Positions 15,030-26,649 of a DNA stretch of 26,649 nt are shown piece after piece. A model generated the notes under the pieces. It ran no database searches. It was not told the DNA's origin and saw only the letters and a list, made by a program, of their open reading frames with translations. Positions within the stretch are counted from its first letter, which is position 1; every line of letters begins with the position of its first letter. Both the position numbers and the translations under genes were made by a program. Source of the stretch: a virus; the IMG/VR virus record IMGVR_UViG_3300006793_000232, positions 1-26,649 of that record; one strand, 5' to 3'.

Positions 15030-16250
15030 TTACATGTTTGTAATCTTACAGAAAGCTTCTTGTCTGTAAACAGCAAGACCGACTCTCATTGTAGCTCTAA
15101 TAGCTAGTTTTCCTTTGAGGAAAAAGTCGCTATGTGAATCTGAGACCGCAAGGTCTAGACCACTACGCATTACAACGTGAGCTGCTTCACCGCCACCGAA
15201 TTTACCAACAAGTACAGTACCTGCTGCTATTGCAGTGGAAGCTACGACTGGAAGACCCCAAATTCTTGGAGTTGCATCGGCACCAAAGCCACCAGCAACT
15301 ACAAATAATGGGTTCTTTGAACCGCTTGTAGTTACATCTGTGACGGATGTTACGATGTCATACCAGTCTGATGGATGCATTATTATTGCATCTGGTTCTA
15401 CGAAAGCACCTTTTCTAATTTCTGTAATGGCTTCATAAATTTGTCCTAATTTTCCTAATTCGCCGGAATAAGAACTATTGTTAAAGCCGGGTAATCCAGA
15501 TTTAGTTAATATACCTTCCATGTTTGGAGCAGAACCGTCTCCGGAAAGGAGTTGGTTGTCCAAACGTAGTTTCATCATTGTGCCTAGTCTTGAGTTGACA
15601 TAACCTTGAATTCCATTTACATCTGCTAATAACTCTTCTGTCACAGGCAAGAAAACGCCAACCTTACGGATTGGTGCAGTTTGTTCTGTGAAGTCAAGTG
15701 CTGCTTCTGCTGTTGTAGCTTCTTCAGCTTGTTCAGCAGCAGCATTAGTGAAAGTAGTTTCTTCCATGTATGCAAATGAATTTTGGTTTGTTTCAATCTG
15801 GTCGAAAAGACCAATGACAGCATCTGGGTCTCTAAGAGCGGACTCTAAGATTCCCGGTTGTCTTAATGTTTCCGGAGGAAAGGATGCAGTAAGTCCGGCA
15901 CCTAATGTTGCCTTTTCACCATATGCTGGTGAGAACTGTACTGTTGAGTCTATACCTTTAACTCCATCTTCTGTATAGCCTTTGTAAGCATCAGAATTAA
16001 CGAATGCTTGACCTACAGTTGACGGACCAGCTTGTGGTTCCTCTGATGCATAAACTTCTTGCTCCATAGCTTTTTCATTTTTAGCTTTGGCGCTCTCTAG
16101 TTTATCTGCGTCAATAAGACCAGCAAGCTCAGTGTTAAGACCTTTGATTTTTTCTTTTGCTTCTGGGGTATATTTACCATCAGTTGCAGAATCAAAAGCC
16201 TCTTTTAACTCAGCCCTTACCTTGGAAATGTTATCTTTATTATTTGTCAT
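15030..16250 (-). CDS. Major capsid protein (HK97 fold)
   Basis: A 406-aa protein with an N-terminal charged helical arm of ~100 residues (MTNNKDNISKVRAELKEAFD), as in HK97-type capsid proteins where this delta domain scaffolds assembly and is cut off by the prohead protease. The rest has family landmarks: TAPIRKVGVFLPVTEELLAD, IIMHPSDWYDIVTS, FGADATPRIWGLPVVAS near 330-345, and the C-terminal FFLKGKLAIRATMRVGLAVY. A TTG 15 bases upstream is in frame, but GGAG lies 9 nt before the ATG at 16250, so the ATG is chosen. It forms the icosahedral shell. Confidence 0.94.
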   Translation of the reverse strand: MTNNKDNISKVRAELKEAFDSATDGKYTPEAKEKIKGLNTELAGLIDADKLESAKAKNEKAMEQEVYASEEPQAGPSTVGQAFVNSDAYKGYTEDGVKGIDSTVQFSPAYGEKATLGAGLTASFPPETLRQPGILESALRDPDAVIGLFDQIETNQNSFAYMEETTFTNAAAEQAEEATTAEAALDFTEQTAPIRKVGVFLPVTEELLADVNGIQGYVNSRLGTMMKLRLDNQLLSGDGSAPNMEGILTKSGLPGFNNSSYSGELGKLGQIYEAITEIRKGAFVEPDAIIMHPSDWYDIVTSVTDVTTSGSKNPLFVVAGGFGADATPRIWGLPVVASTAIAAGTVLVGKFGGGEAAHVVMRSGLDLAVSDSHSDFFLKGKLAIRATMRVGLAVYRQEAFCKITNM

Positions 16251-23981: not shown

Positions 23982-23990
23982 AGTATACCA
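23982..23990 (-). promoter_or_regulatory. Extended -10 promoter with a normal leader
   Basis: TGGTATACT on the minus strand, ~30 nt before ATG 23952. A transcript starting near 23975 would carry AAAGGA as ribosome site. It serves the 84-aa and 204-aa genes and lies downstream of the structured RNA region. Confidence 0.6.
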
Positions 23991-24326
23991 CATGTCTAAA
24001 GATAATGCAAATTAAAAAAGAAATTTTTTTTCATTTTGAATACGACTCTCCGAAGAGAGTCGACGATGGGAGGGTATCGACAAAAGTGTAATCTCTTGCG
24101 AGACTACAGCCGACTATATCAGTATACCCTCTTGTATCGTCCTTGTTTATGTCATCCAGCTGTTAACACTTAATACATCACTATTTAAATAATGTTTGTT
24201 GCTGTACGAGTTGAGTCTTTCCCAACAAGGACATAAAAAAAAGGGAGTCAATATTTTAACTTTTACTTAATCACTACATTTAGTATCTTGTGTACACCAC
24301 AATTTAGTCAATTCCTAACTCCCTAG

Positions 24327-24406
24327 TGGACGTGGAGGGAATCGAACCCTCGTTACTTTTTGCCATTACTATATAGCAACAACAATAAGTCTATCCATTC
24401 ACGCCC
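24327..24406 (-). ncRNA. tRNA-like element with alanine-type acceptor stem, no normal anticodon arm
   Basis: An acceptor stem of GGGCGTG pairs with CACGTCC (all 7 bp, position 3 a G-U) and is followed by unpaired A73. The T arm is canonical: GAGGG, loop TTCGATT, CCCTC. CCA is not encoded. G3-U70 plus A73 is the identity set used by alanyl-tRNA synthetase for tRNA-Ala and tmRNA. The middle does not fold as a normal D arm and anticodon arm. Instead AATGGATAGAC, which recalls the tmRNA D region (TGGATTCGAC in E. coli), is followed by a possible 11-bp helix with four G-U pairs and an ATAT loop. A TGC (Ala) triplet is present, but only a poor anticodon stem can be drawn around it. It is far shorter than a tmRNA, and no tag-coding loop is inserted. 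Confidence 0.6.
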
Positions 24407-24549
24407 TAGCGGAATGAGGTGACGTGAATCACCAACACTGTCCCACAACTGTAATTCTAAGACTGTTGTCAGCCTCCCATCAGTTTAATACTTGAGTATT
24501 CTCCTAACTCGTGGCTTCATTCCTGTACACAAGTGTCCAGTTCATGTAC

Positions 24550-24569
24550 TTTCTCGGTTGTCCGAGAAA
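24550..24569 (-). other. Strong hairpin directly after a stop codon
   Basis: TTTCTCGG and CCGAGAAA form an 8-bp stem with a 4-nt loop, starting two bases after the stop of the 241-aa gene. No T tract follows on the minus strand; on the plus strand TTTT follows. It may be a processing or 3'-end protection signal at the border with the structured RNA. Confidence 0.55.
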
Positions 24570-24571
24570 TT

Positions 24572-25297
24572 TTAGTTTACCTCTTCCACAATATAATTCA
24601 CGACATAATCTATAAAACTTGTCGAAAACATTGCTTTAGAAATTAACTCTAAACTTTCTTCTGAGTGCTCATCTTCCCCGTCTCTTTTCGCAGGCATACC
24701 TTTATTTAATTCTGTGTATGCATTAATGAGTTCATAGATTTCTTTAACCGAACATTTAAAATCTTCCGGCTCTTCTAAAAATTCTGAATCTTCGTAAGGA
24801 ATAATCATAAACTTTTGAATTAGCTCATTGGTAAATTTCTTTAAAGAAAATTGGAAGCTTTCTTTAAAGTCATCATAATTCCATAAACACTGTCGAAGAT
24901 AATTCTTTTTTTCCTCAATTGATAATTTTTCATACTTTATAAAATTATTATCTAAAAGATTAAAAGTTAACTTCTGCAATTCTTTTGTTGAAAAATCATC
25001 TTTGTAGTTATCTTCTACTTCTAACTTGTTACATTCGTTTATAGAGTTAAACATAGCTACGTCCATATAATCCATAAAATCCTGTGAGTTCACTTTAAAA
25101 TCATCGTCACTATATTCATAGAAGTCTCCAGTATCGGGGTCAATGTCTTGAATAACTTCTAAAGTCTTAATAAAAGCATCACCAATATTTTTAATATTGT
25201 CTCTTGTTCTTACTGCCCAATAGAAACCTATAGCTTCTCTAACTTCTTTAGCTTTCTCTTCGTAGTACTCGTCTATAACGTGTTGTTTATATAACAT
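24572..25297 (-). CDS. Hypothetical acidic helical protein
   Basis: A 241-aa acidic protein (MLYKQHVIDEYYEEKAKEVR) that looks all-helical, with many Asp, Glu, Phe and Asn (for example LLDNNFIKYEKLSIEEKKNY). There are no cysteine clusters, membrane segments or known catalytic motifs. The ATG overlaps the upstream stop by one base (TAATG), so it is coupled to the 253-aa gene and may act with it. Unknown family. Confidence 0.8.
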   Translation of the reverse strand: MLYKQHVIDEYYEEKAKEVREAIGFYWAVRTRDNIKNIGDAFIKTLEVIQDIDPDTGDFYEYSDDDFKVNSQDFMDYMDVAMFNSINECNKLEVEDNYKDDFSTKELQKLTFNLLDNNFIKYEKLSIEEKKNYLRQCLWNYDDFKESFQFSLKKFTNELIQKFMIIPYEDSEFLEEPEDFKCSVKEIYELINAYTELNKGMPAKRDGEDEHSEESLELISKAMFSTSFIDYVVNYIVEEVN

Positions 25298-26589: not shown

Positions 26590-26649
26590 AGTTCATCTGG
26601 CGTACTACTGTAGTTCATTTAACGAACCCCTGCAGTTCGCCTCTCGAAC
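26590..26649. repeat. Tandem dyads with 22-bp period, cut by the window edge
   Basis: AGTTC occurs at 26590, 26612 and 26634, exactly 22 bp apart; matching right arms GTAC (26602), GAAC (26624) and GAAC (26646) follow after 7 bp. Each unit is GTTC-N7-GAAC, an inverted repeat of the size bound by a dimeric protein, and 22 bp puts the sites on nearly the same helix face. It may be an operator or origin array that continues past 26649. Confidence 0.65.

Follow-up and report, generated by a model that had tools for sequence, protein, structure and literature searches.

The window analysed here, that is the whole 26,649-nt stretch of viral DNA, carries towards its end about 530 nt between protein genes in which no internal open frame of 50 aa or more is found and into which the flanking frames reach by their ends only, so that the stretch is gene-free as the original prediction had held. 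The units recognised in and around it, with boundaries that we infer, are the following.

24550–24569, minus strand: 8-bp hairpin found by scanning, immediately past the stop codon that ends the upstream gene (24572–25297), with similar hairpins in L007 and L016.
24411–24523, minus strand: TLD1, the upstream tRNA-like module, recognised from inverted repeat I3 and a covarying acceptor.
24472–24481, minus strand: GAUGGGAGGC, whose complement is found in the C-rich linker of domain C (24065–24073); the calculated duplex is −18.3 kcal/mol.
24327–24406, minus strand: TLD2, of the TLD-only tmRNA form, scoring 42.1 bits with the Rfam tmRNA model and 69.8 bits with our own; the same fold is found in L003, L034, L035 and others.
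24241–24326, minus strand: domain B, with 15 distinct homologues (model R3).
24137–24240, minus strand: linker helix UUAUGUC/GACAUAA with inner hairpins, from inverted repeats I4 and I7 and alignment.
24121–24126, minus strand: −10-like hexamer TATACT, 6 nt before the GUCGG start of domain C, from a consensus scan and conservation.
24040–24114, minus strand: domain C, a putative phage sRNA, with at least 89 distinct sequences (25 of them close) and covariation reached in 0 of 500 shuffles.
23982–24011, minus strand: promoter-like TTTGCA-18-TATACT with TG, from a consensus scan only, downstream of the putative sRNA and before the next operon.

Folding of positions 24000–24640 evidences a clear difference between the strands. 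The minus strand has a minimum free energy of −193.6 kcal/mol, compared with −149.9 on average for shuffled sequences (z = −6.75, equalled by 0 of 20 shuffles), whereas the plus strand reaches −143 against −127 (z = −2.59), a much weaker departure. This agrees with the dense minus-strand RNA structure that had been read from the sequence, and the elements singled out at that time also exist. The GCAA and UUCG loops are real, and in the relatives of domain C the GCAA loops give way to UUCG or GAAA on stems that covary. The 9-base direct repeat (24313–24321 and 24502–24510) and the 10-bp helix joining 24287–24296 with 24524–24533, with 227 nt between its arms, are likewise present in the window; they are not conserved, and since L003 and L007 change both, they probably arose by chance.

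A search of the window against Rfam returned 0 families at the gathering score, and ARAGORN reported neither a tRNA nor a tmRNA in the stretch. With relaxed thresholds only tmRNA stands out, at 24324–24406 on the minus strand (42.1 bits, E = 2e-15), in a match that skips 294 of the 374 positions of the covariance model. Among the families proposed for comparison, tmRNA thus gives the best relaxed match while remaining below its gathering score of 47, and GOLLD, ROOL, RNase P and group I introns, which have no match at the gathering score nor any up to E 10 around the site, were rejected. A group I intron had also been suspected by eye from the P7-like ACUAAAUG and GAUAUAGUC, which covariation places in other helices.

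Using the terminase of the window phage as query we collected 28 related IMG/VR loci, and 38 loci were obtained with a 19-base invariant segment; the two exact matches of this 19-mer in a genome contig collection fall in coding-looking DNA where the RNA surroundings are absent, and were judged to be chance. Among the resulting alignments A1 and A7 are the reliable ones, and A5 holds five weak, probably false matches. In nearly all loci the order is the same, with upstream genes, the RNA, small genes, terminase, portal, protease and capsid on one strand. Related phages encode WhiB, which we take to be a marker of actinobacterial hosts, and this suggests that the window phage infects Actinobacteria. 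Alignment of the distinct copies shows that structure is conserved as covarying units which behave as separate modules, coming and going independently, and in the minimal relatives L020, L036 and L044 the cassette is reduced to its 3′ unit, domain C. The identity first put forward, a single large ornate RNA of the GOLLD or ROOL kind spanning the whole 530 nt, would account for the continuous dense structure on one strand; because relatives lose, gain and swap units independently, down to the three that keep the 3′ unit only, and there is no Rfam match, it is a very improbable description of this locus. What is shared with GOLLD and ROOL is being structured phage RNA associated with tRNA-like elements; sequence and structure do not match, and the cassette is modular, not a single large fold. 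The stretch is therefore made of several separate modular RNA units and not of one giant RNA. The suggestion of a new class holds for domains B and C, which covary and have no Rfam match, and is not supported for one large molecule, and the view that the minus strand yields a functional noncoding RNA is probably right, with a relation to tRNA-like RNA.

TLD2 comprises 80 nt that close on themselves and form a tRNA-like domain without an mRNA part. Its 7-bp acceptor, GGGCGUG/CACGUCC, includes a G3-U70 wobble and is followed by A73, which together are identity elements for alanyl-tRNA synthetase. There is no D stem, a long P2 hairpin with a short AU loop replaces the anticodon or tag, and the T-arm is GAGGG-UUCGAUU-CCCUC. 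In respect to tmRNA (RF00023), TLD2 has in common G3-U70, A73, the missing D stem, the D-loop GG, a long P2 where the anticodon stem would be and the T-arm; it differs in lacking the mRNA-like domain, the tag frame and the pseudoknots, as judged from closure within 80 nt, the skipped model positions and the silence of ARAGORN, and in its sub-threshold score. A tRNA-Ala does not fit either, there being no D stem, no alanine anticodon arm and no tRNA call by ARAGORN. A phage-encoded tRNA-like domain alone is what defines the TLD-only (CDS-less) tmRNA in PMC4131195, and TLD2 is of this form.

The conservation of these features was analysed in a table of distinct copies. G3-U70 and A73 are unchanged in all 14, whereas pairs 4-69 to 7-66 covary, and it is this table alone that bears on conservation of the wobble, those of its members found with covariance model R1 (built from 11 copies and used for further search) leaning towards the training set. 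A D stem is missing from every one of the 14, a single irregular hairpin fills the middle, and 13 of them have GG in the D-loop segment. In L003 the acceptor pair C4-G69 has become G4-C69 with G3-U70 unchanged, and in L034 and L035, otherwise different phages that both encode WhiB, TLD2 stands alone between protein genes with a P2 that has changed and is still paired. The idea of a functionless remnant, be it a degenerate tRNA-Ala, a tmRNA pseudogene or an att-site fragment of the host tmRNA gene, draws on the fact that tmRNA genes are common integration sites and on a true phage tRNA-Ala (L074) with the very same acceptor as TLD2. However, an att fragment would retain the 3′ end only, whereas here both acceptor strands are present and covary, and compensatory changes occur in P2 between the window, L034, L035 and L130 as well as among Streptomyces phages; with the alanine positions in every tabulated element, we hold decay to be quite improbable.

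Upstream of TLD2, TLD1 has a 7-bp acceptor (GGAAUGA/UCAUUCC), a T-arm-like hairpin and then GCUA, and is devoid of the alanine G3-U70. Its acceptor appears in relatives as GGAAUAU/AUAUUCC, GGAAUAA/UUAUUCC, GCCUGUG/CACAGGC and GCAGUA/UACUGC, and its discriminator may be A, G, C or U. The missing alanine identity and variable discriminator of TLD1, and the CUA that leads into the next unit after TLD1 as well as after TLD2, are what would be expected if the tRNA-like modules were mere RNase P/RNase Z processing sites cutting a long transcript into mature pieces. We consider this unlikely, as a processing site needs no invariant G3-U70 and TLD-only copies also stand by themselves, as between the two protein genes in L034 and L035.

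TLD2 is a probable anti-trans-translation decoy, a reading by analogy that follows from the precedent of mycobacteriophage DS6A, a phage listed as "TLD only" (Mao et al. 2009, as given in PMC4131195 and PMC11915505). According to the passages on DS6A in the latter two sources, a molecule of this type is a strong inhibitor of tmRNA whether or not it can be charged with alanine, and may act by titrating SmpB. By analogy, the TLD2 RNA would be processed like a tRNA and receive a CCA end, which is not encoded at 24327–24406, would be charged with alanine and might bind SmpB, perhaps also EF-Tu and the ribosome; having no tag frame, it would compete with the host tmRNA and damp trans-translation during infection. 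As DS6A is described in those passages, both are phage RNAs with little beyond the tRNA-like domain of tmRNA and no tag frame. TLD2 differs in being nested within a multi-unit noncoding cassette, the likeness being one of description, and the form appears here far more widespread than the single reported phage case. CDS-less tmRNAs of jakobid mitochondria and Mallomonadaceae plastids, as cited in PMC11915505, have equally lost the reading frame; these are organellar, and the mitochondrial form is thought in that account to aid ribosome rescue, unlike a phage decoy. The tag-less kind is thus already known, and its novelty here appears to lie in how widely it occurs and in its being set within a noncoding cassette.

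As to this spread, the cassette under study carries TLD2 in the window, L003 and L004, and R1 finds it at other loci of relatives (L044, L055, L056, L104, L105 and L106). By blast, 87 Streptomyces phage records match the TLD-only form, streptophage Jay2Jay has an unannotated copy in its tRNA cluster, and BRock and Microbacterium phage Vitas also bear copies. Two pattern scans of IMG/VR gave 29 distinct sequences, which say nothing of the conservation of G3-U70, this pair being built into the patterns. ARAGORN called none of the scanned copies, and these mostly score under the Rfam tmRNA threshold. Samisti12 (L083) has a full tmRNA at 26648–26914 with the tag ANSKFAFALAA besides a TLD-only copy at 15761–15837, and the presence of both in one Streptomyces phage genome is awkward for a simple block of trans-translation. 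Most relatives lack TLD2 at this position, and the covariance model found no TLD-only match in 95 further sRNA-bearing loci among the matches listed; the two units are hence not obligately linked, their linkage being lineage specific.

Between TLD2 and the 3′ unit, domain B consists of a closing helix (GGGAGU/ACUCCC), an inner helix (UUGACU/AGUUAA) and two inner hairpins, with U8 next. The closing helix is 100% paired in the 15 homologues, 3 of its 7 pairs having changed on both sides, and no Rfam family matches the domain. The linker helix that separates B from C takes the form UUACGCC/GGCGUAA, GCUCAC/GUGAGC or GCCCAC/GUGGGC in relatives. At L013 (6371–6960) we observed an apparent recombinant whose 5′ part is L007-like and whose 3′ linker helix is window-like, which points to modular exchange in the cassette.

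Domain C is about 75 nt long and folds into two hairpins: GUCGG-hairpin-UCGAU, then the C-rich linker ACCCUCCCAUCGUC, then the terminal hairpin GACUCUC-UUCG-GAGAGUC, the invariant C-rich stretch of the linker being CCUCCCAUC. In the 25 close homologues 94% of the cells in paired columns are paired, and the covariation score exceeds those of all 500 shuffles and of all slid registers, the GAGGGUA/UACCCUC helix contributing little covariation. The model also matches WhiB-encoding phages distant from the window, in a shorter form made of GUCGG-loop-CCGAC, CUCCUCCCAUCAUC and the terminal hairpin, and a generalised pattern is found in at least 120 IMG/VR contigs. Among the matches listed, the terminal stem is paired in 89 of 89 distinct sequences, and takes many compensatory forms; in an alignment of 49 distinct rows, pairing and covariation score once more lie above all shuffles. 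Rfam gives no convincing match to domain C in the window, only weak sub-threshold hits, and for the short-form homologues a single tmRNA hit is all that appears up to E 0.5.

The position of domain C is as constant as its fold. Among the matches listed, 90 of 96 newly found loci have the terminase on the same strand 0.7–3.3 kb downstream, and 51 of the 96 a WhiB-like gene, mostly 0.5–2.6 kb upstream. The −10-like hexamer is retained as TANNNT at −12 to −7 of GUCGG (T-12 in 72%, A-11 in 91% and T-7 in 81% of the 89 distinct sequences listed). Judged on sequence, domain C is probably a phage sRNA with its own promoter, and a candidate for a new RNA that is widely conserved and keeps a constant position ahead of terminase. 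This same arrangement, a promoter-like −10 followed by domain C just ahead of a same-strand terminase operon, could also serve a cis-acting control of the nascent late transcript, such as a put-like antiterminator or an attenuator. Such a leader is the main rival, since not every copy has a U-run behind the terminal hairpin (a T5 occurs in the first 60 nt or so after it in 38 of 88). Against it stand the terminator-like U-run at that point in one subclass and, weakly, the second promoter-like site past the terminal hairpin, which L070 matches with an analogous TTGACA-17-TATAAT. We regard cis control as rather unlikely, though clearly better placed than the alternatives discussed for TLD2.

A free sRNA of about 75 nt would be transcribed from this −10 promoter, and its exposed CCUCCCAUC linker could pair with G-rich sites, for example Shine-Dalgarno-like GGGAGG, or with a complementary site in the upstream cassette RNA, tuning gene expression around the early-to-late switch. 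The pairing of GAUGGGAGGC in TLD1 with the linker amounts to 10 bp in the window and is weak, being equalled in 21 of 500 shuffles; in one subclade the TLD1 segment pairs more extensively, at 16 of 17 positions in L041, and in L041 and L046 the pairing is equalled by 0 of 500 shuffles. The actinobacterial 6C sRNA and the C-rich-region sRNAs of Gram-positive bacteria are short, with two hairpins and an exposed C-rich stretch complementary to G-rich, Shine-Dalgarno-like sites. Domain C has the same short two-hairpin build with an exposed C-rich stretch, and differs in having no Rfam match, in being phage-borne and in its fixed location upstream of terminase.

Overall, we read the locus as several distinct noncoding RNAs gathered in a compact cassette immediately ahead of the packaging and structural genes, with TLD2 as a TLD-only tmRNA decoy and domain C as an sRNA, and assign to this combined proposal a probability of roughly 0.6. 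The computations establish the folds, their covariation, the alanine-identity positions, the recurrence and location of the units and the conserved −10, from which transcription, processing, charging, titration of SmpB and targets of the sRNA are inferred. More tentatively, and with the balance leaning against so broad a statement, tag-less tmRNA decoys may be a common and mostly unannotated weapon against trans-translation in actinobacteriophages and others, and a large phage clade may pair its packaging operon with an undescribed C-rich sRNA controlling the early-to-late switch, the decoy having been inserted in the same cassette in this lineage. A single reported phage has so far stood behind the idea that a phage RNA mimic suppresses ribosome rescue. 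Since dozens of contigs, and Streptomyces phages available in culture, have the same form, laboratory tests can begin immediately; ARAGORN misses this form, and the scanned copies mostly lie below the Rfam threshold. The target of domain C and its role in phage timing are testable as well, given its fixed place upstream of terminase.

Some further observations were made along these genomes. The short motif UGGACACUUGUAC (24524–24545, minus strand, in the window) is met again in several relatives, either within the first tRNA-like module or upstream of it, with GGGACAG recurring near it, and L049 (about 2250–2480) has about 110 nt extra inside the upstream tRNA-like module when compared with L050. 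The 340-kb and 114-kb contigs L113 and L123 carry a TLD-only form with the internal motif GAAAGCCGACAAUGGA, as in Streptomyces phages. In Samisti12 a gene for a Ro-like RNA-binding protein (L083, 11513–13165) is situated a few kb away from many tRNAs and from the TLD-only element at 15761–15837. A Y RNA/YrlA identity, prompted by this Ro-like protein of Samistivirus, was rejected on the lack of any Y RNA hit, and no gene for the Ro partner TROVE was found in the window record or in 8 related records, several of them partial. Another tRNA-like RNA, about 95 nt long and likewise unannotated, is present in the Streptomyces phages Jay2Jay (L081, 640–742) and in L084, L085 and L089–L091; it lacks a recognisable anticodon arm and has the conserved internal GAAAAGUUGGUCACUCAGUA.
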